Assembly (NCBI GenBank): GCA_025055075.1
Contig: JANWYV010000033.1
Coordinates: 1-64,000 of the forward strand
Reading direction: 5' to 3'
DNA from: Blastocatellia bacterium
Lineage (GTDB): Bacteria > Acidobacteriota > Blastocatellia > HR10
DNA length: 64,000 nt
The notes under the pieces are model-generated. The model had not been told where the DNA came from and searched no databases. It was given only the letters and a program-made list of their open reading frames with translations. The position numbers and the translations under genes are program-made. Shown here piece after piece: positions 28,613-39,370 of this stretch (its first letter is position 1; every line of letters starts with the position of its first letter).

Positions 28613-29569
28613 ATGGAACGCATCTCCACGGACATCGTCGTTCGCGCACGCGGGGTGACGCGGCGCTTTGGGGAGTTAGTGGCTGTGGAGCGTCTCGATC
28701 TGGAAGTGCGGCGGGGGGAGATCTTCGGCCTCGTGGGACCCGATGGGGCGGGGAAGACGACGGTGCTCCGCATGCTCTGCGGGGTGTTAGAGCCGGAGGC
28801 GGGGGAGATCGAGGTGGTCGGATACGATGTGCGCCGACAGCGCGAGCTGATTCGGGAGCACGTCGGCTATGTGGCTCAGCGTCCCGGGATCTACGACGAT
28901 CTCTCGGTCGAGGAGAACGTGCGCTTCTATGCCGATCTCTATGGTCTCCCGGCCCGAGTGCGCGAAGCGCGCATGGGGGATCTCTTGCGCGTGACGCGTT
29001 TGGAGCCGTTTCGCCAATACCGAGCCCATCAGCTCTCCGGCGGCATGCGACAGAAGCTCGCACTGGCTTGTGCGCTCATACATCGTCCGCAGATCCTCTT
29101 TCTGGACGAGCCGACGACCGGCATTGATCCGATCTCTCGGCGAGACGTCTGGGCGCTCCTGGCTGAGTTGCGAAGGGAAGGAGTGACGATCGTCTTCACG
29201 ACGGCTTATCTCGAGGAAGCGGAGCGGGCGACGCGCCTCGGCTTCCTGTATCGCGGGCGGGTGCTCAGGTGCGCTCCAGCCGAAGCGCTGCGCAGCGAAT
29301 TCTCTGAACGGGGGTGCGAGATCCTGACGCCCGATCACGCGAAGGCGCGACGCGTGCTTCAACACTGCGAGGGCCTCGTGAGCGTCGAACTCTTCGGCGC
29401 CGCTCTTCGTGTCTTCTTCGATCCCACGTGTGCTTCGCCGGAGACTGTCAAGCGCGCGCTGGAAGCCCACGGGATCGCTGAGGTGACGGTGCGACGATTC
29501 GTCCCTTCTTTGGAAGACGTCTTCATCGCTCTGATCCGCCAGCACGAGCCACTCAGGAGGGACGCATGA
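28613..29569 (+). CDS. ABC-2 exporter ATPase 1 (YbhF N-half-like)
   Basis: A 318-residue ABC ATPase with Walker A GPDGAGKTT (Asp in place of the usual Asn), signature LSGGMRQKLALA, Walker B ILFLDEPTTGIDP and switch TTAYLEEAERA, where the usual His is Ala-Tyr (FTTAYL), so the H-loop His is missing. The C-terminal ~80 residues are the DrrA-type regulatory extension. In E. coli the two ATPase modules are fused in YbhF; here they are separate genes joined by an ATGA overlap. The loss of the H-loop His suggests this half may be the weaker ATPase site. Confidence 0.88.
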   Translation: MERISTDIVVRARGVTRRFGELVAVERLDLEVRRGEIFGLVGPDGAGKTTVLRMLCGVLEPEAGEIEVVGYDVRRQRELIREHVGYVAQRPGIYDDLSVEENVRFYADLYGLPARVREARMGDLLRVTRLEPFRQYRAHQLSGGMRQKLALACALIHRPQILFLDEPTTGIDPISRRDVWALLAELRREGVTIVFTTAYLEEAERATRLGFLYRGRVLRCAPAEALRSEFSERGCEILTPDHAKARRVLQHCEGLVSVELFGAALRVFFDPTCASPETVKRALEAHGIAEVTVRRFVPSLEDVFIALIRQHEPLRRDA

Positions 29570-30522
29570 GCGGATCGAGGGGAGAGGATTGGGCCATCGA
29601 GGTCGAGGGATTGGTTAAGCGATTCGGCGCGTTCGTCGCCGTGGATCACATCAGCTTTCGCGTGCGGCGGGGAGAGATCTTCGGGCTCCTCGGGCCGAAC
29701 GGTGCGGGCAAATCCACGACGATTCGCATCCTCTGCGGATTGCTCCTGCCGACGGAGGGACGGGTGCGCGTAGATGGCCTCGATGTCCCGACGCATGCCG
29801 AACACGTCAAGCGGCGCATCGGTTACATGTCGCAGCGGTTCTCCCTCTACGGGGATTTGACCGTCGAGGAAAACGTGGAGTTCTTCAGTGGCCTCTATGG
29901 CGTCGCGCGCGAACGCCGGCGCGAGCGCCTGGAGGAGGTCCTGAAGATGGCGGGGCTCACCGCGCGACGGCGCGCGCTCGTGCGCGTGCTCCCTGGGGGC
30001 TTGAGGCAACGATTGGCGCTCGCCTGCGCGCTCGTGCATGAGCCGCCGATCCTCTTCTTGGATGAACCGACCGCGGGCGTCGATCCGATCGCGCGCCGTC
30101 AATTCTGGGAGATGATCGCGCGCCTCTCGGAGGCCGGTCGTACGATCCTGGTGACGACGCATTATATGGACGAGGCGGAACGGTGCCATCGGTTGGCCCT
30201 CATGCACCGAGGGCGGATCGTCGCGCTCGATGCCCCAGCCGCTCTCGCCCGAGCGCTCTCCTCGGTGGTGTTCCTGCGCGTCGAATCCTCGGATGTGTTG
30301 GAGAGCGCGAAGGCGCTCGAGCGGGAGGCGACGGTCGAACAGATCGCTTTCTCTGGCCCCGGTCTTCATCTTCGCGTTCGCGATCCACATCGGGCGAGCG
30401 AACGGATTCGACAACTCTTGCACGCCCGAGGGATCGCGCTCTCTCGACTGGAAGTCGTCCCGCCTTCGATGGAGGACGTCTTCGTAGCCCTGATCGAAGA
30501 GAAGGAGCGGAGCGAACGGTGA
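29566..30522 (+). CDS. ABC-2 exporter ATPase 2 (YbhF C-half-like)
   Basis: A 318-residue ABC ATPase: Walker A GPNGAGKST, signature LPGGLRQRLALA (Pro for Ser at the second position), Walker B ILFLDEPTAGVDP and intact H-loop TTHYMDEAERC. It ends with a DrrA-type extension (SRLEVVPPSMEDVF). It likely pairs with the upstream ATPase as a heterodimer. Its ATG overlaps the preceding stop and its own stop overlaps the GTG of the permease gene, so the three are translationally coupled. Confidence 0.89.
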   Translation: MSGSRGEDWAIEVEGLVKRFGAFVAVDHISFRVRRGEIFGLLGPNGAGKSTTIRILCGLLLPTEGRVRVDGLDVPTHAEHVKRRIGYMSQRFSLYGDLTVEENVEFFSGLYGVARERRRERLEEVLKMAGLTARRRALVRVLPGGLRQRLALACALVHEPPILFLDEPTAGVDPIARRQFWEMIARLSEAGRTILVTTHYMDEAERCHRLALMHRGRIVALDAPAALARALSSVVFLRVESSDVLESAKALEREATVEQIAFSGPGLHLRVRDPHRASERIRQLLHARGIALSRLEVVPPSMEDVFVALIEEKERSER

Positions 30523-31652
30523 CGTGGCGACGGACATGGGCGGTCGCTCGGAAAGAGTTCCTCCACATTCGACGCGATCCGAGGAGTCTCCTGCTCGCGC
30601 TCGCCGTGCCCGTCGTCTTATTGCTTCTGTTCGGATATGCGTTGCGCCTGGACGTTGATCGCATCCCCATGCTCGTGCGAGATGCCGACGGCAGCCCACA
30701 GAGTCGGGAGTTGATCGCCCGCTTCGCCGGCTCGCGCTTCTTCGAGGTGATCGGCATGGTCGAAGATGAAGCGAGCATCGCGCGCGAGATGGATCGCAAC
30801 CGTTGCTTGATGGCGCTCGTGATCCCTTCCGAATATTCGCGCCGGTGGCTTCGCGGGGAGCGGGCGTCCATTCAACTGCTCCTGGATGGGAGCGATTCGA
30901 ATACAGCTTCGATCGCTCTTGGCTACGCGGAGACCGTGCTGCGGACGTATGCCGGGGAATGGCAAGTGTCCGTCTTGCGGCGTTCGACGGGACAGCCGAT
31001 GAAGCCCCCGCTCGATCCGCGCGTGCGCGTCTGGTATAACAGCGAGCTTCGGTCGCGCAATTACATCGTCCCCGGGTTGATCGCCATCATCCTGATGATC
31101 ATCGCCGCGTTACTCACTTCGCTCACCATCGCGCGCGAATGGGAGGTGGGGACGATGGAGCAACTGCTCTCGACGCCGGTGCGAGCTTCTGAGATCGTTC
31201 TCGGGAAGATGCTCGCGTTCTTCACCATCGGAGTGCTCGATCTGCTCATCGCGCTCGTGGTGGGGGTCTTCTTCTTTCGCGTGCCACTGCGTGGCAATCC
31301 GCTTGAGGTTCTCCTGATGGGGGGGCTCTTCCTCTTTGGCGCGCTTGGGTGGGGGGTGTTCATCTCCGCGCTCGTGCGCTCGCAAGTCTTGGCGTATCAA
31401 TTGGGCGTGATCACGTCATTCCTGCCAACTTTCCTGCTCTCGGGCTTCATCTTCGCCATCGAGAACATGCCGCCGATCGTGCAGGGGCTGACTTATCTCA
31501 TCCCCGCGCGATATTTCATCGTGATCTTGCGTGGTCTCTTTCTGAAGGGGATCAGCCTGGAGATGCTCGTGGGGGAGGTGGCGTTTCTGATCGGATACGC
31601 GGGAGCGGTCTTCGCCCTCGCCACACGGCGCGTGCGACGAGGATTGGCGTGA
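30519..31652 (+). CDS. ABC-2 exporter permease 1 (YbhS-like)
   Basis: A 377-residue permease with one N-terminal membrane helix (LLLALAVPVVLLLLFGYAL), a large periplasmic domain (about 45-185), then five helices, the standard ABC2_membrane_3 pattern. Shared motifs are VWYNSELRSRNYIVPGLIA and GTMEQLLSTPV (coupling region). The start is the GTG at 30519, overlapping the ATPase stop (GTGA). The longer open frame lies over the ATPase gene and is ignored. It likely forms a heterodimer with the next permease. Confidence 0.9.
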   Translation: MTWRRTWAVARKEFLHIRRDPRSLLLALAVPVVLLLLFGYALRLDVDRIPMLVRDADGSPQSRELIARFAGSRFFEVIGMVEDEASIAREMDRNRCLMALVIPSEYSRRWLRGERASIQLLLDGSDSNTASIALGYAETVLRTYAGEWQVSVLRRSTGQPMKPPLDPRVRVWYNSELRSRNYIVPGLIAIILMIIAALLTSLTIAREWEVGTMEQLLSTPVRASEIVLGKMLAFFTIGVLDLLIALVVGVFFFRVPLRGNPLEVLLMGGLFLFGALGWGVFISALVRSQVLAYQLGVITSFLPTFLLSGFIFAIENMPPIVQGLTYLIPARYFIVILRGLFLKGISLEMLVGEVAFLIGYAGAVFALATRRVRRGLA

Positions 31653-31653
31653 G

Positions 31654-32805
31654 ATGTGGGATCGCCTTTGGGAGATGATTCGGAAAGAGTGGCGGCAGGC
31701 GTTGCGCGAGCCGCGGATGCGCGTCCTGCTGTTTCTGCCGCCAGTAATTCAGCTCATGATCTTCGGCTATGCCGTCAATCTGGATGTGGAGCGCGCGCCG
31801 ATCGCGTGGATGGATGGGGATCGGACGCCGGCCAGTCGCGCTTTGCGGGCGGCCTTTGAGGGATCGCCCCATTTTCGCATAGTCGCCACCCCAACGCGCG
31901 AGGATGAGGGACGTGAGCTTCTGGATCGCGGGCGCATCCTCATGCTCGTGCGCGTGCAGCCGGGCTTCGCCGAGCAGGTGAGGCGAGGGGAGACGGCCGC
32001 CGTGCAAATCCTCATTGAGGGGACAAACTCGAACACGGCCTCCATCCTCACCACCTACGCGACCCGCGTCGTCCTTCGCTACGCCGACGAGGTGATGGCC
32101 GAGCGCGAACACCGCGCGCTGAGAGCGCTCGCCTTCGACCGCGATGCCCCGATCGTTGTCCCCAAGCTGGATGTGCGAACGCGCGTGTGGTTCAATCCCG
32201 ATCTCCGCAGCCGGAATTATTTCGTCCCCGGCGTTCTGGTCAACATCATCGCCATTGTCACATTGATCCTCACGGCGATGGCCATCGTGCGCGAGCGCGA
32301 GCTGGGGACGATGGAGCAACTTCTCGTGACGCCGATTCGTCCGGTGGAATTCGTCCTCGGGAAGACCGTACCGTTCGCCATCGTCGGCCTCGTTGATGTC
32401 GTCTTGGTGACGAGCGCGGCGTTGCTCATCTTCCGCGTTCCGTTTCGAGGGAGCGTGCTCGTTCTCATGCTGGGAGCGATCCTCTTCGTCTTGACGACAC
32501 TCGGGGTGGGCGTCCTCCTCTCGACGATCTCTCGAACGCAACAGCAAGCGATGCTCGCCTCGTTTTTCTTCTTCATGCCGGCCTTCACGCTGAGTGGATT
32601 CGCCTTTCCGATTCGCAACATGCCCGTGCTCGTGCAATATCTCACCTATGCCAACCCCGTGCGGTATTTCTTAGAGATCGTGCGTGGGGTGTTCTTGAAG
32701 GGGACGGGAATCGCCGTCCTGTGGCCGCAGATGGTGGCACTGCTAGCGTTCGGGGTGACCGTTTTCGGCGTGAGCATCTGGCGATTCCGACGACGGCTGG
32801 AATAG
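31654..32805 (+). CDS. ABC-2 exporter permease 2 (YbhR-like)
   Basis: A 383-residue permease that is a paralogue of the one just upstream. It has the same N-terminal helix, periplasmic domain with GTNSNTASI, VWFNPDLRSRNYFVPG and GTMEQLLVTPI, and five C-terminal helices ending MPVLVQYLTYANPVRYFLEI. The ATG follows the preceding stop by one base. It is the last gene of the efflux set and converges with the gamma-glutamyltransferase gene 46 bp away. Confidence 0.9.
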   Translation: MWDRLWEMIRKEWRQALREPRMRVLLFLPPVIQLMIFGYAVNLDVERAPIAWMDGDRTPASRALRAAFEGSPHFRIVATPTREDEGRELLDRGRILMLVRVQPGFAEQVRRGETAAVQILIEGTNSNTASILTTYATRVVLRYADEVMAEREHRALRALAFDRDAPIVVPKLDVRTRVWFNPDLRSRNYFVPGVLVNIIAIVTLILTAMAIVRERELGTMEQLLVTPIRPVEFVLGKTVPFAIVGLVDVVLVTSAALLIFRVPFRGSVLVLMLGAILFVLTTLGVGVLLSTISRTQQQAMLASFFFFMPAFTLSGFAFPIRNMPVLVQYLTYANPVRYFLEIVRGVFLKGTGIAVLWPQMVALLAFGVTVFGVSIWRFRRRLE

Positions 32806-32851: not shown

Positions 32852-34558
32852 TCACAGCAGTGGTTCCGGAATGGCCGCGCCGTCTTTTCGCGGATCGGAA
32901 GCCCCGAAGTTCACCCCGGTCGCGAAATCCCGCGCGACGGCTTGTCCACCACCCATTTGTGAGGAGTAAGCCCCACGCACTTGAAGCTGATGGCCGAGCG
33001 CCCGCAGCTCTTCGCGCACCCCTTCGGGAACGCGCGCTTCGATCTGCACGTCGCAGCCGCCGAAAGTCCGTTTGGTGAAGCGCGCGGCCTCGAGCGCTTC
33101 TTGGATGTTCATCCCGTGATCCACAATGTTAGAGACGAACTGCGCATGCGCTTGCGCTTGATTCCAGCCACCCATGATGCCGAAGGCGATGCGCACGCTC
33201 CCGCGCTCCATGAAGGCCGGGATGATCGTGTGCAACGGACGTTTCCTCGGCGCCAGCGCGTTCGGGTGCGCCGGATCGAAGCTGAAGAGCGCCCCGCGAT
33301 TCTGAAGCGCGAAGCCCGTTCCTTCGGCGACGAGCCCGGATCCGAAGCTCTCGTAGTTGCTTTGGATGAGGGAGACCATGTTCCCCTCGCGGTCCACGAC
33401 GCTCAGATACACGGTCTCATCCCCCGCATCCACGGGCGTCCCCGGTTCGACCTCGCATTGCGCTTTCGCGAGATCAATGCGACGGGCGCGCTCGCGCGCA
33501 TACGCCTTCGAGAGAAGCCCGGAGACAGGAATGCGCGCGAAGCGCGGATCGGCGACATAGCGGATCAAGTCCGCGTAGGCGAGTTTCTTCGCCTCGATCA
33601 TAACATGGAGCGCCCGCGTCGAATTGTGTCCGAACTCTCCCAGAGGGAATTGCTCCATGATGTTCAGCATGATCAAAGCGGCGATGCCTTGCCCATTGGG
33701 AGGAAGCTCGTAGACGGTCCATCCGCGATAGGTCGTCGAGATCGGTTCAACCCATTCGCTGGAGAACTCCGCGAGATCAGCAGCCGTCATCATCCCTCCG
33801 TGTCGTCGGAGGGTATTCAGCAATCGCCTCGCGATCTCACCTTTGTAGAAGGCTTCGGGGCCGTGCGTGGCGATTTGCCGATAGCTCCACGCCAGATCGG
33901 GATTGCGAAAGACTTCGCCGACGCGCGGCGCGCGACCTTCGGGCAAATATGTTCGCGCGGCTGACTCGTCCTGGCGCAGCAGCCGTTCGTTGGCCGCCCA
34001 TAGCGCGGCGACCAGCTCCGTGATGGGAACGCCTTCCTCGGCATAGCGAATCGCCGCTGCGAAGAGATCAGCCCATTTCAAGCGCCCGAAGCGGGCGTGC
34101 AGCTTCGCCCATCCATCTACAGTCCCCGGCACCGTCACCGTGTGGACGCCGCGCTGCGGCATCGTCGTATGCCCCTGGCGTTTGAGGAATTCGATCGTCA
34201 ATCCCGATGGCGCCCATCCGCTGGCGTTCAATCCGTAGAGCCGACCCGTCCGCGCGTCATAAACGAGCGCGAACAGATCGCCCCCGATCCCATTGCTCAT
34301 CGGCGCGACCAGCCCCATCATGGCGTTAGCCGCGATCGCCGCGTCCACGGCGTGTCCCCCGCGCGCCAAGATCATCGCGCCCACCTGCGACGCCAACGGA
34401 TGCTCGCTCGCGACGATGCCATGGCGCGAGATCACCATCGAGCGGGCTTGCCACCGGTCTTGGGCGGCGGTTCCCGATTCGATCGTCTTCCAAGCGAAGA
34501 GGGGGATTACCATCAGAACGCCCAGCGAGCATGCGCTCATCGCCATCATGCTCTTCAT
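32852..34558 (-). CDS. ggt: Gamma-glutamyltransferase family protein, exported
   Basis: A 568-residue Ntn-hydrolase that would self-cleave before Thr382 (DETVYLSVVD) to give the small subunit, which follows with GNMVSLIQSNY. It removes or transfers gamma-glutamyl groups from glutathione and related peptides. Other features are MVISRHGIVASEHPLAS, GGHAVDAAIAANA, GIGGDLFALVY and the C-terminal GIMGGWNQAQAH. An N-terminal hydrophobic segment (residues ~5-22) suggests export to the periplasm. ATG 34558 follows AAGGAGGAAGG; the frame is open 46 codons upstream but without a ribosome binding site. It groups with the YwrD-like rather than the classical TTHYS type. Confidence 0.85.
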   Translation of the reverse strand: MKSMMAMSACSLGVLMVIPLFAWKTIESGTAAQDRWQARSMVISRHGIVASEHPLASQVGAMILARGGHAVDAAIAANAMMGLVAPMSNGIGGDLFALVYDARTGRLYGLNASGWAPSGLTIEFLKRQGHTTMPQRGVHTVTVPGTVDGWAKLHARFGRLKWADLFAAAIRYAEEGVPITELVAALWAANERLLRQDESAARTYLPEGRAPRVGEVFRNPDLAWSYRQIATHGPEAFYKGEIARRLLNTLRRHGGMMTAADLAEFSSEWVEPISTTYRGWTVYELPPNGQGIAALIMLNIMEQFPLGEFGHNSTRALHVMIEAKKLAYADLIRYVADPRFARIPVSGLLSKAYARERARRIDLAKAQCEVEPGTPVDAGDETVYLSVVDREGNMVSLIQSNYESFGSGLVAEGTGFALQNRGALFSFDPAHPNALAPRKRPLHTIIPAFMERGSVRIAFGIMGGWNQAQAHAQFVSNIVDHGMNIQEALEAARFTKRTFGGCDVQIEARVPEGVREELRALGHQLQVRGAYSSQMGGGQAVARDFATGVNFGASDPRKDGAAIPEPLL

Positions 34559-34693
34559 CGGCCCTTCCTCCTTCGTCGCCGCAAATTGTATGCATGAGGC
34601 ATGCCCGAGGGCAACCGCTATCCGCGCGCAGAGTCTCAGTGGGAGCGTGGAGACTTTCGGCGAATCGCGTCGAGAGGGAGGGAGCTGGTGTCT

Positions 34694-34710
34694 CATCCCC
34701 GCGAGGGATG
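34694..34710 (-). terminator. Small hairpin after the PspA-AAA operon
   Basis: CATCCC (34694-34699) and GGGATG (34705-34710) with a 5-nt loop CGCGA, about 65 bp beyond the AAA gene stop. It has no T-tract. It resembles the 17009 palindrome in layout (CTCAT..CCC, loop ending CGA, GGG..ATG). Confidence 0.28.
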
Positions 34711-34772: not shown

Positions 34773-36488
34773 TCACTCGCCGAGGAGCATCTTCAACTCT
34801 TCCACGCGGCGACTGATCTCCGCTGGGGAGAGGTGTCGGTATTTCGGTGGGATCATCTCGCGCGAGGTCGCTTCCAAGATGGCCACGAGCGTTTGATATT
34901 CCAACGCCAGCTCATCGCGCGCAGGGATGAATTCGCGGGCGACGCGTTCGAGATCTTCGGGGAGGACGACATCCCGCTGCGCTTGTCGGGCCAGACGGCG
35001 CGCGCGAATGAGCATGGATTCGATGTCGGCGCCAGAGAGCTCCTGCGGATGCCGAGTGATAGGCGACCAATCTTCGATGGCGTGTCGAATCTTGTTCTTC
35101 CGCAGCATGGCCTGCACGATCTCCCATCGCTCCTCTTCACTCTGCGGATAAAAGAGGGAGATGTGCTCCTCGCAACGGCCCTGTCGCTTCAGGTCAATGG
35201 GGAGGAGATCGGGACGACAGGTCATGAGGATCCAGAGGATGCGCCCGCGATTCCGCGTATCCCCCATCGCGCTCGCGATTCGAGAGAAGACACGAGCGCT
35301 CACGCCACTATCCCCCTCAGTGCGTCGCGTCCCCAGCGCAGCATCGGCTTCATCAACGAGCACGACGATGGGCGCTAGCGCCTGCAGCAAACTGAGGATC
35401 TTCTCCAGGTTCGCCTCGGTCGAACCCACCCACTTCTCCCGGAAGTTCTTGAACTCGACGACATTCAATCCGCAGTCTTTCGCGAAGCATTCCGCCAGGA
35501 ACGTCTTCCCCGTCCCCACGGGACCCGAGATGAGAATGCCCATGGGCGCTTCCTCCCATCGCCCTTGGCGGATCGTCTCGGCGATGCTGCGGAGGAACTC
35601 CTTGGCGCTCTTCATCCCGCCCACGCTCTCCAATCCGTGTTCGGGCGTCACGAATTCGATGAGTCCAAAGCATTCGCTCTCGATGATCGCCTTCTTCTTC
35701 AATCGCACCGCTTCGAAGGTCAATCCGTCCGGATCCAATTGCGCGCTTCGCAAGAGCGCGTTCAGATGGACGCGGTTCAATCCCGAGGTGAGCTGCGCCA
35801 GTTGGCGCTCATCCATCTCCATCTTCACTTGGGGATGACGCGTTCGGAAGTGGCGGATGAAGTCGAGGCGTTCGGCTTCATCCGGATAGGGGATCTCGAT
35901 CGTCACCAGGCGCGAATTCTGTCGGACGCGCGCGTTGACATCGGCGAGGCTCTCAGCGATGAGGATGACGATGTTGTCCGAATGCAAGAGGCGCGCGCTG
36001 GTGATCCAGCGCTGCAACGTCACGAGGGCATGGCGATCCTCGCCGCTCAAGTGTCCGATCTCTCCGGCTGGAGCGAGCGTCTCCAAGAAGGTGAGGATGA
36101 CGGCGACCTGATCGCCGTGGAAGAGATAGCGCTCGATGAGCGGGAGAGCGCGACTCGGCTCTCGAGGGAGCGCTCGCAGGGCCTCGCGGCCGAGCAACGG
36201 ATCGGCCACGCGCGCGTGAGCGAGGAATTGGCGCTCCACCTCCGGGGAGCTGAAGGTGATCCCCGCGCTCCGATTGTAGAAAACGACGTTCTTGTTCCCG
36301 AGCAGCTTCCGTTGCAGGAACGTGAGCAGATCTACATATTGACCGTTGGCGGGAATGAGGTCGTAGATGTTGTGATGGAGGAGGAAATGACTCGCTTCGC
36401 CAGCGTAATACTTTCGCACCAATTCGCCCGCCCAACGAGGCAGGCGCACGATCTCTTCGAGCGAGAGAAAAGGTTTTGGTCGCGACAT
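34773..36488 (-). CDS. AAA ATPase with degenerate N-terminal AAA module (Vps4/Cdc48-like D2)
   Basis: A 571-residue protein. Residues ~100-250 look like an AAA module without a P-loop (a Walker-B-like NIVILIAES and a tail IPYPDEAERLDFI). Residues ~285-500 are a full classical AAA module: Walker A GPVGTGKT (322-329), pore-loop-like KWVGSTEAN (352-360), Walker B VVLVDEADAA, and RQGRCEEH at the arginine-finger position (RPGRFD in relatives). The C-terminus is helical with repeated Arg. It is the last gene of the pspA operon, 4 bp after the coiled-coil membrane protein. A remodelling role on PspA polymers, as Vps4 has on ESCRT-III, is an inference from this context. Confidence 0.85.
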   Translation of the reverse strand: MSRPKPFLSLEEIVRLPRWAGELVRKYYAGEASHFLLHHNIYDLIPANGQYVDLLTFLQRKLLGNKNVVFYNRSAGITFSSPEVERQFLAHARVADPLLGREALRALPREPSRALPLIERYLFHGDQVAVILTFLETLAPAGEIGHLSGEDRHALVTLQRWITSARLLHSDNIVILIAESLADVNARVRQNSRLVTIEIPYPDEAERLDFIRHFRTRHPQVKMEMDERQLAQLTSGLNRVHLNALLRSAQLDPDGLTFEAVRLKKKAIIESECFGLIEFVTPEHGLESVGGMKSAKEFLRSIAETIRQGRWEEAPMGILISGPVGTGKTFLAECFAKDCGLNVVEFKNFREKWVGSTEANLEKILSLLQALAPIVVLVDEADAALGTRRTEGDSGVSARVFSRIASAMGDTRNRGRILWILMTCRPDLLPIDLKRQGRCEEHISLFYPQSEEERWEIVQAMLRKNKIRHAIEDWSPITRHPQELSGADIESMLIRARRLARQAQRDVVLPEDLERVAREFIPARDELALEYQTLVAILEATSREMIPPKYRHLSPAEISRRVEELKMLLGE

Positions 36489-36492
36489 GACG

Positions 36493-37311
36493 CTATTGGC
36501 GCTCAGGCGTCAGCGGCGGCGCTTGCTGGCGCTCCAGGGCCTCCAAGGCGCTCATGATCGGCGCCGTCTCTTCCAGGACCGAGCGCGTCATCTCGATGCT
36601 CGAGAGCACGGATTCGAAATCGAGCGCCGCGATGCTCTCGACCGAAGACATCGTCATGACTTTGTCGTTGACCAGCCCGAAGAAATTCTCGATCGTTTGA
36701 AGTTGCGCTTCGAGGAGCTTCGTCGCTCGTTCAATGCTCTCATATTCAGCGAGGCGCGCCCGCAGGATGTTCAGGTTGTTCTCGATCACCTTCCGGGTCT
36801 TCTCATCGGCCGAGGCCAACTGACGCTCCGCCTGGGCGATTTGGTTCATGATGGCCTGACGATTGAACGCCCGGAGGTGCGTCTTGCAGCGCCGATAGAG
36901 ATCGAGGAAATCCACGAAGCGTTCCCACATCGCATCGAGCGTGCGAATATCGGCGGGCACGTCCTTGGAACGGGTGAAACGCATGTAGTTGGCGTAGATC
37001 TGCTTCTTCAGCCAGCGGAGATACTCCACGGCTTCTCGCTCGCGCGGATCGAACGATTTGATCAACTCTTCGCGAGCCCGCTGGCGTTCCGCGGCCGCGC
37101 GTTGCCGCTGCCGGCGTTCCACCAAGCGTTGATAGGCCGTCGTCGCCGGCACCGTCAGCAAATAAAGGACCTCGGCGGCAGCGCCGCCGAGCAGGATGAG
37201 CTTCTCCAAAGGAGGCGGAGCATAAACGGCCGCGGCGAGCACGCCGACGATCGCCCAGAGATTCACCGGCTCTTTGAGCGCCTCCCAGACGTAAGCGATT
37301 CTTCTCGGCAT
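36493..37311 (-). CDS. Membrane-anchored coiled-coil protein of the PspA operon
   Basis: A 272-residue protein with two closely spaced N-terminal hydrophobic segments (about 17-32 and 37-55, likely a hairpin) and a long charged helical remainder (about 60-255) rich in Glu, Arg and Gln, probably coiled coil. I do not recognise a named family. ATG 37311 (MPRRIAYV) is chosen; a TTG nine codons earlier is in frame. Between pspA and the AAA gene it is well placed to be the membrane anchor or adaptor for both. The C-terminal Pro/Gln tail (QQAPPLTPERQ) could be a docking peptide for the AAA protein, which is speculative. Confidence 0.8.
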   Translation of the reverse strand: MPRRIAYVWEALKEPVNLWAIVGVLAAAVYAPPPLEKLILLGGAAAEVLYLLTVPATTAYQRLVERRQRQRAAAERQRAREELIKSFDPREREAVEYLRWLKKQIYANYMRFTRSKDVPADIRTLDAMWERFVDFLDLYRRCKTHLRAFNRQAIMNQIAQAERQLASADEKTRKVIENNLNILRARLAEYESIERATKLLEAQLQTIENFFGLVNDKVMTMSSVESIAALDFESVLSSIEMTRSVLEETAPIMSALEALERQQAPPLTPERQ

Positions 37312-37435
37312 CGTGAGATCCCCACTCCTGATCGTCAACGCCAGGCGCAGCAGGACGTTCGGCCGTCCCTTGCGACGTCGAGGGATCGCCGGAGCTGAAG
37401 GAAAGCTGCGCGCGTGGCGATTCGTTGGATTCGGC

Positions 37436-38212
37436 TCATCCTTCCGTGGTCTTCAGCGGCTCGGAGCGCGTCGCTTCCTCTTCGGCCGGTCCGAGCGTCT
37501 TCTCTGGGAGCGCAGCCGCTTCCGGAGCTGGGGCTTCGGGCAGTAATCCCATCTGTCGCTTATAGGCGATCAGCATATCCTGAACCTGCATCGAGAGGGC
37601 TTCCTTCTCGATCTCGGCGATCTGACTCTCGACTCCCGTCGCGGCCAGCTCCATCTTCGCTTCGGCCGCGGCAACGCGCCGCGCGACTTTCTCCCGCATC
37701 TCTTCGAACGTCCCGGCTTCATCGCCGAGTTGGAAGCTGGCCATCGTCTGCGCCAATTGCTCCTGAATACGGGCGCGGCGATGCTCGGCGATCAGTTGCA
37801 TCGCTTCTTGCTGTCGCTTCTTGAGTTGCAAGATGTAGTTGTCGCGGAAGCGAATCGCCTGTTCCGAAGCGCGGCGGGCGGCCTCCAATTGCTGGCGCGA
37901 CCGCTCCAGGGCGACCTGTTTCTCCTGCAGCGCACTGATGAAGGCTGTTGCCAGATCATCTCGCCCTTGCTTGATGGCAGCGCGAATCTTGGCGTCGAAT
38001 TCCGTGATCTCTCGCTCCAGAGTCATGACCTCTTTTTCCAAGAGCTTCTGCGTGGCCATGACTTGAGCGACGTTCTCATTCATCTGAGGGAGCTTGTCGC
38101 GCATGTCGCGGATAACCTGCTGCAGGATCAGCTCCGGATCCTCCGCTCGTTCGATGAGCCCTCCGAAGATGGCTCGTAAGAGCCGCTTGAGTCGTTGCCA
38201 CATCGTCGCCAT
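37436..38212 (-). CDS. pspA: PspA/IM30 (Vipp1) family membrane-stress protein
   Basis: A 258-residue PspA/Vipp1 family protein, the bacterial counterparts of ESCRT-III that polymerise on damaged inner membranes. The start MATMWQRLKRLLRAIFGGLIE is amphipathic (helix 0), then AEDPELILQQVIRDM (family signature), followed by long helices alpha1-alpha4 up to ~residue 220. The last ~35 residues are an extra Pro/Glu-rich tail that may serve as a handle for partners. AAGGAGG precedes the ATG. Two further genes in the same direction (membrane coiled-coil, AAA ATPase) complete the operon; there is no PspF or PspBC. Confidence 0.9.
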   Translation of the reverse strand: MATMWQRLKRLLRAIFGGLIERAEDPELILQQVIRDMRDKLPQMNENVAQVMATQKLLEKEVMTLEREITEFDAKIRAAIKQGRDDLATAFISALQEKQVALERSRQQLEAARRASEQAIRFRDNYILQLKKRQQEAMQLIAEHRRARIQEQLAQTMASFQLGDEAGTFEEMREKVARRVAAAEAKMELAATGVESQIAEIEKEALSMQVQDMLIAYKRQMGLLPEAPAPEAAALPEKTLGPAEEEATRSEPLKTTEG

Positions 38213-38398: not shown

Positions 38399-39370
38399 AT
38401 GCGACCGAACAGTGCCTCAGCACGCCATGTTGGAGCCGGGATCGGCTCGCGAGCCGGACGGCGGGCGATCGCCATCGCTTTGCTCGTGGTCTGGCTTTCT
38501 CCTTCGGCCTCCTTTCGCCAAGCCGACGTGAGGACACGCCTTGAGGCGATGATCGCCGCCAGCGGCGCGGAAGCCGTCGCCGTGGCCTACTACGATTTCG
38601 CGACCGGGGAGGAGATTCTCCTTCGAGCGGACGACCCGTTCCATGCGGCGAGTACGATGAAAGTACCGGTGATGATGGAGGTCTTCCGACAAGCGCAGGA
38701 GGGGCGGCTCTCTCTCGACGATCACCTCATCGTCAAGAACGAATTCCGGAGTCTCGCCGATGGAAGCGCGTTCTCCCTCGCCGTGGAGAATGACGCTGAT
38801 CCCGCGCTCTATGAGAGGATCGGACGCGCAGTGCCGATCCGCGAATTGGTGCGCGCCATGATCGTGCGCAGCAGCAATCTGGCGACGAATCTCCTCATCG
38901 AGCGCGTCACGGCCGCGCGCGTGCAGGAATTGATGGAGGCGATCGGTGCGTCGGGGATGCGCGTCCTCCGCGGCGTGGAGGATCGCCGGGCGTTCGAGCG
39001 GGGGCTCAACAACACGACGACGGCGCGCGCGTTGCTCGTCATCTTTCGGCGTCTCGCCGAAGGGCGCGTCGTCTCGCCCGAGAGCTGCGCGGAGATGGTG
39101 CGCATCCTGCTCGATCAAGAGTTCAACGATGGCATCCCGGCCGGTTTGCCGGCGAGCGCGCGCGTGGCGCATAAGACGGGAGCAATTCATCGAATCGCGC
39201 ACGATGCCGGGATCATCTATCCGTCCGAGGGACCACCTTATGTGCTCATCGTCCTCACGCGCGGGATAGCCGAGGAGCAAAGCGCCAACCGACTCATCGC
39301 AGAGATCTCGCGCCTCATGTACGAGCATACCCTGAAGCAGCGAGCGGAACGCATTCCGCAGCGGCAATGA
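38399..39370 (+). CDS. Class A beta-lactamase-like serine hydrolase, exported
   Basis: A 323-residue exported protein with all four class A elements: Ser85-x-x-Lys88 (STMK), Ser158-x-Asn160 (SSN, in place of SDN), the omega-loop ExxLN as Glu200-Arg-Gly-Leu-Asn204 followed by NTTTA, and Lys259-Thr-Gly261 (HKTG). A basic start and a hydrophobic run (residues ~22-38) give a signal peptide. GGAGG is 6 nt before the ATG. It could hydrolyse beta-lactams or act as a D,D-peptidase or esterase relative. The SSN replacement and divergence leave the activity open. It is divergent from the pspA operon. Confidence 0.82.
   Translation: MRPNSASARHVGAGIGSRAGRRAIAIALLVVWLSPSASFRQADVRTRLEAMIAASGAEAVAVAYYDFATGEEILLRADDPFHAASTMKVPVMMEVFRQAQEGRLSLDDHLIVKNEFRSLADGSAFSLAVENDADPALYERIGRAVPIRELVRAMIVRSSNLATNLLIERVTAARVQELMEAIGASGMRVLRGVEDRRAFERGLNNTTTARALLVIFRRLAEGRVVSPESCAEMVRILLDQEFNDGIPAGLPASARVAHKTGAIHRIAHDAGIIYPSEGPPYVLIVLTRGIAEEQSANRLIAEISRLMYEHTLKQRAERIPQRQ

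Follow-up and report, generated by a model that had tools for sequence, protein, structure and literature searches.

A PspA operon of Blastocatellia encodes a Cdc48-like tandem AAA ATPase whose occurrence covaries with a PspA tail motif

PspA of a Blastocatellia bacterium is encoded on the minus strand in one operon with a predicted membrane-anchored protein, here called MID, and a tandem AAA ATPase (AAA), and in two bacterial groups the C-terminal tail of such PspAs carries a motif that covaries with the AAA gene. This covariation, read from sequence, suggests a bacterial version of the ESCRT coat-and-motor machine. We lean slightly towards regarding the genes as a dedicated PspA-remodelling system that would work in the manner of ESCRT-III and Vps4, with a different motor recruited via the PspA tail.

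PspA is related to the ESCRT-III proteins, which reshape eukaryotic membranes. Whether any ATPase takes the role of Vps4 for bacterial PspA and Vipp1 is an open question in Liu et al. 2021 (PMC8281802) and in a 2024 study of PspA rods (PMC11746142). Ravi et al. 2024 (mSystems, PMC11237479) described operons in which PspA occurs with a double-AAA protein inactive in its N-terminal copy, a longer operon with an ABC ATPase, a permease and an OmpA/PBPB protein, and a TM-bearing helical protein, and these authors already propose ATP-dependent membrane remodelling.

Results

The three-gene locus

In the window, i.e. the whole stretch of 64,000 nucleotides analysed here (contig JANWYV010000033.1), all three open reading frames of the PspA/membrane-protein/AAA operon proposed in the earlier note are found on the minus strand, where PspA is followed by MID and then by the tandem AAA ATPase, with gaps of 124 nt between PspA and MID and of 4 nt between MID and AAA. 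A promoter and terminator scan gave no signal clearly exceeding shuffles. A class A beta-lactamase-like gene (PF13354, E 1e-57; window 38399-39370, plus strand) lies divergent from pspA at a distance of ~200 bp, a gamma-glutamyltranspeptidase gene (32852-34696, minus strand) is located directly downstream of AAA, and an ABC-2 type exporter operon with ATPase and permease genes (29566-32805, plus strand) lies near the locus on the opposite strand.

The PspA protein (37436..38203, minus strand) belongs to the ESCRT-III superfamily. It is a member of PspA_IM30, matching PF04012 with an E-value of 3e-28 and 99.3 bits at a curated cut-off of 33.9, it matches solved Vipp1/PspA structures, and it is the one PF04012 member in the genome of the window. 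We prefer the start at ATG 38203 (MWQRLKRL, 255 aa) over ATG 38212 (258 aa), as it agrees better with the relatives and with an AAGGAGG site. The extra acidic/Pro tail noticed earlier is present and is kept in AAA-bearing relatives. It contains EKTLGP (37487..37504, minus strand; residues 237-242, numbering from ATG 38212), which on the grounds of conservation and of covariation with the AAA is a candidate AAA-recruitment signal; 16 residues come after it.

MID (36493..37311, minus strand, 272 aa) is a helical protein of a conserved family, and its start is ATG 37311, conserved among relatives, rather than TTG 37338. Hydropathy gives two hydrophobic stretches at residues ~15-32 and ~37-56, and in the structure model a short helix comes first, before the two hydrophobic helices and a body that is likewise helical. 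The two predicted hydrophobic helices near the N-terminus bear out the proposal that the middle protein is membrane-anchored. MID has no Pfam Snf7/PspA match and matches no known family, its hhalign comparison with PspA returns a probability of 1%, and a fold search against the PDB gives no match at E<=0.001; a kinship with ESCRT-III or PspA is unsupported by any of the three. Because the MID model is shallow (8 sequences, pTM 0.64), this null is a failure to detect, and MID may be a very divergent member. Fold matches to axonemal, BAR and PI3K coiled coils (E>0.05) were taken as chance.

The Pro/Gln tail of MID (PPLTPERQ at its C-terminus, 36496..36519, minus strand) is likewise present and kept in AAA-bearing relatives. 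As for its proposed role as a docking peptide, MID tails differ between Blastocatellia with and without the AAA, but none of the tail features they share extends to the families with the longer operon, and a MID recruitment motif comparable to that of PspA therefore remains only a lead. In the AAA-less family f4 the protein ends in NYELLP.

The tandem AAA ATPase

The third gene encodes a 571-aa tandem AAA ATPase (34773..36488, minus strand), whose Cdc48/p97-like architecture is apparent from both sequence and structure matches. The catalytic module D2 (residues ~280-520, 34929..35651) matches PF00004 with an E-value of 2e-25 across residues 318-444. Its Walker A GPVGTGKT (residues 322-329, 35502..35525), pore loop KWVG (residues 352-355, 35424..35435), Walker B DEAD (residues 379-382, 35343..35354) and arginine-finger loop RQGR (residues 435-438, 35175..35186; RxGR in general form), all on the minus strand, are present in 17 of 17 aligned relatives. 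The pore loop was thus read correctly in the earlier note; extended to KWVGSTE it is invariant in 17 relatives and has the tryptophan of pore loop 1 of Vps4 (KWMGES).

Within the first 275 residues no Pfam family matches, and in all 17 aligned relatives the first module is without a Walker A, which argues against an ATP-competent D1. The predicted structure (pLDDT 86, pTM 0.79) aligns over its full length with D1-D2 of p97, Cdc48 and Rix7, and a Foldseek comparison with p97 D1-D2 (E 1e-22, TM 0.63, ~600 columns) aligns both modules. Because the fold aligns with D1 and the Walker A is missing, the first half (D1, residues ~16-275, 35664..36443, minus strand) is a real but dead AAA module, as the degenerate first module had been described.

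The description of the ATPase as Vps4-like has to be given up. There is no match to an MIT domain at E<=1, the N-terminal half being the degenerate AAA module, and none to a Vps4_C region; by structure the protein has two modules and not a single cassette, and its RxGR finger is of the Cdc48 type. CDC48 scores 95.8 bits compared to 45.1 for CdvC, and the best 60 PDB sequence matches comprise p97, Cdc48, AFG2, NVL and Rix7 together with one FtsH and no Vps4. We therefore reject a kinship with Vps4: the protein is a Cdc48/p97-type tandem ATPase with a dead D1.

Distribution of the gene set

In a survey of 297 Acidobacteriota genomes, where genes within 12 kb were counted as linked, MID is found in 61 genomes, AAA in 46 and PspA in 91. 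PspA accompanies MID in 60 of 61 genomes and AAA in 43 of 46, compared to its overall occurrence of 91 in 297. All three genes are present in 40 genomes and are linked in 30, from 19 families. With the 19 Acidobacteriota families and a second phylum the trio is conserved well beyond close relatives, the point on which the earlier note had staked its reading, and the idea of an operon dedicated to a PspA-plus-AAA system is supported. The compact PspA-MID-AAA operon is the typical form in Blastocatellia. In several other Acidobacteriota families PspA, an OmpA-fused solute-binding protein (NMT1-OmpA), a permease, an ABC ATPase, MID and AAA are encoded in one operon; many linked trios share their operon with an ABC transporter, and the longer form with ABC ATPase, permease and PBPB-OmpA protein is found in the relatives L074, L082 and L244. 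These NMT1-OmpA, permease and ABC genes are absent from the window's own locus. Five genomes of family f5 retain PspA, MID and AAA though the genes are scattered.

The second phylum, that of genome G310 and probably Myxococcota, has the AAA in ~30 of 113 genomes by D1 profile and PspA in 88. Here PspA adjoins AAA without MID in G415, G367, G347 and G377, while the long operon including MID occurs in G346 and G398. In family f4, by comparison, PspA adjoins MID in 18 genomes (97-100% complete) in which no AAA was found, a search with a D1-only profile included. Because these 18 genomes keep the pair without it, the AAA is dispensable for whatever PspA and MID do together. The gene set is modular: PspA+MID+AAA, PspA+AAA and PspA+MID all occur. 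Within Acidobacteriota, we infer, this lineage of PspA has MID as its constant partner in the membrane. The ABC transporter in the operons of relatives, family f4 without AAA and the PspA-AAA loci without MID make it doubtful that the machine is self-contained, as the earlier note had it.

A PspA tail motif covaries with the AAA

PspAs associated with an AAA carry a tail motif of the form [KR][TSED..][LIM]-G-P or KT[LIM]-COOH. The tails of AAA-bearing Blastocatellia read E[KR][TS]LG[PAS]... and those of the AAA-less family f4 differ; long-operon tails include QKTM, EKTLGPKE, KELGPEEK and KQMGP..., AAA-bearing 'Deltaproteobacteria' mostly have KKT[IML]-COOH, and in fresh AAA-bearing genomes from outside Blastocatellia 11 of 11 PspAs end in this way. 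In family f8 the motif region is kept only in part. Because the motif is internal in some families and terminal in others, docking fits better than a strict free-end degron.

A strict pattern, K[TSED][LIM]G[PGA] or K[TN][LIM]-COOH, was fixed before the second phylum was sampled. In that phylum it is found in 14 of 20 AAA-associated PspAs, whereas 0 of 46 PspAs encoded by genomes without the AAA have it, and over all sets in 50 of 66 compared to 0 of 92. A wide pattern fitted post hoc, [KR][TSNQDE][LIM](G[PGAS] or end), covers 65 of 66 AAA-associated PspAs and five of the 92 from AAA-less genomes, namely four GKQIGAG tails among the 18 f4 PspAs and one KQREIGG. When the tails are shuffled, the wide pattern in a K-only form is matched at 0.9%, and the motif matches three times inside PspA bodies in 41,890 residues. 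Fisher's test with the K-only form gives p ~3e-29, a value that ignores relatedness. Other PspA copies in AAA-bearing genomes are without the motif in 12 of 13 cases. The docking role proposed for the PspA tail is thus backed, at the sequence level, by covariation of a candidate motif with the AAA.

A second PspA copy with the motif (EQKSLGPKGD), unlinked to the AAA, is encoded in the AAA-bearing genome of L139 (G254:C14). The f4 PspAs (L095-L112) often have in common KQI[GAE] and, after it, acidic residues (VIVNEA), which may address a different partner.

To correct for relatedness we used a PspA core tree that excludes the tails; it is a quick, midpoint-rooted tree with several long branches. 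The AAA-associated PspAs are all confined to one half of it, and AAA-less PspAs nest within this half three times, namely as family f4 within Blastocatellia, as G202, and as a second-phylum clade of 12-13. Each of these three independent AAA losses coincides with a motif that is absent or altered. The tree yields only four phylogenetically independent contrasts, and on average motif and AAA go together in 3.8 of them (sign test p 0.125). With so few pairs the corrected test is without power and not significant; the direction of the association is consistent.

Discussion

The earlier reading of the locus is right in outline and needs correction in several points, above all in the kind of motor. 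As in the ESCRT-III/Vps4 systems of eukaryotes and archaea (CdvB/CdvC), a protein of the ESCRT-III superfamily is paired with a classic AAA with a tryptophan pore loop, KWVG here and KWMG there, and a C-terminal tail motif resembling the MIM motifs is the candidate recruiter. In contrast to these systems the ATPase has no MIT domain, two AAA modules and a Cdc48-type arginine-finger loop, and the tail motif is a different one. With Cdc48, p97 and AFG2, its best sequence and structure matches, it shares the D1-D2 architecture, but it differs from them by a D1 without Walker A, by a model without a separate N-domain and by an identity of only ~20%. PspA is also paired with an AAA+ protein in the PspA-PspF system of E. 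coli, where PspF is an NtrC-type transcription activator inhibited by PspA and not a disassembly motor.

These features can be combined in a working model. PspA would polymerise on the inner membrane with MID as its membrane-anchored partner, and the AAA would assemble as a two-tiered, presumably hexameric ring, in which the inactive D1 tier may serve as a docking or scaffold ring that replaces the MIT domain of Vps4. The flexible PspA tail with K-T-L/I/M(-G-P) would recruit the AAA by direct binding, for which the dead D1 ring may be the docking site. PspA subunits could then be pulled on and threaded by the active D2 tier and the tryptophan of its pore loop, so that they are extracted and unfolded and the polymer is turned over, as by Vps4 with ESCRT-III. 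That a Cdc48-like tandem AAA recruited by this motif disassembles a membrane PspA polymer, and is in this sense the functional counterpart of ESCRT-III/Vps4, has in our estimate an even chance of being true. If so, bacteria would have arrived at the same combination of polymer, tail motif and AAA by way of another branch of the AAA proteins.

The frequent presence of an ABC transporter in the operon would also allow a different role, in which AAA and PspA help to assemble a membrane transporter or to control its quality, the AAA acting on transporter subunits or on MID by an Msp1-like extraction, and PspA being a membrane-stress partner and not the client. The longer NMT1-OmpA/permease/ABC ATPase operon of other Acidobacteriota and the second phylum, the membrane anchor of MID and the altered MID tail in the AAA-less family would all fit. 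However, Blastocatellia and others have no transporter genes beside the trio, PspA-AAA pairs without MID occur in G415, G367, G347 and G377, of which G415 and G367 also have no transporter genes next to the pair, and the covarying motif is on PspA itself; we consider a transporter role unlikely.

Similarly improbable in our view is that the motif addresses another partner, such as a protease or an SPFH protein, and that both motif and AAA disappeared through shared gene loss or lineage effects. The independent contrasts are few and some of the AAA-less f4 PspAs still have KQI-type tails, as such a partner would allow, yet the motif tracks the AAA even when the genes are unlinked, as in f5 and the Delta genomes, and it is missing from most of the further PspA copies that these cells encode. 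The joint retention of the genes where they are unlinked, together with the covarying tail, speaks against an ordinary conserved neighbourhood of genes co-regulated in envelope stress without physical interaction; although operon conservation by itself cannot prove contact, we give this explanation very little credence.

The association of PspA with an AAA is not new, since it is reported in PMC11237479, and the earlier judgement that the set is little studied holds for experiments only. The window operon matches the system of Ravi et al. in its AAA with an inactive first module next to a PspA gene, and relatives match its longer operon. The 'Snf7 homologue with a TM segment' described there is probably MID, for which we detect no Snf7/ESCRT-III homology. 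In the main text of PMC11237479 we found neither the motif of the PspA tail nor its link to the AAA, nor the PspA+MID and PspA+AAA dyads, and the open-licence papers covered by our search likewise gave no account of the motif, the covariation or the AAA-less and MID-less dyads. The covarying PspA tail is the strongest new element, as it turns an association into a recruitment hypothesis testable with two purified proteins, one point mutant and a peptide. Should a bacterial PspA indeed have a Cdc48-like motor of its own, along with a tail signal that covaries with it, this would be a second coat-and-motor machine.

The surroundings of the AAA gene vary further outside Acidobacteriota. In 'Deltaproteobacteria' it often lies away from PspA, beside FHA and HEAT-repeat genes. 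In L008, L034 and L037 it is found near tandem FHA-domain genes, HEAT-repeat genes and a gene for an uncharacterised protein of 390-560 aa, with PspA elsewhere, sometimes ~15-25 kb away on the same contig. The product of the gene upstream of AAA in the Delta loci was considered as an extra client and rejected, its C-terminus being without the motif. In the second phylum a TerB-like gene, PspA and AAA are consecutive in G367 (L237:1259-4418), as are PspA, a gene for an unknown 932-aa protein and AAA in G408 (L240:2014-7847). As in the 'Deltaproteobacteria' set, the AAA also occurs in two MAGs (L015, L030) titled Klebsiella pneumoniae and Bifidobacterium breve, titles that are probably wrong.
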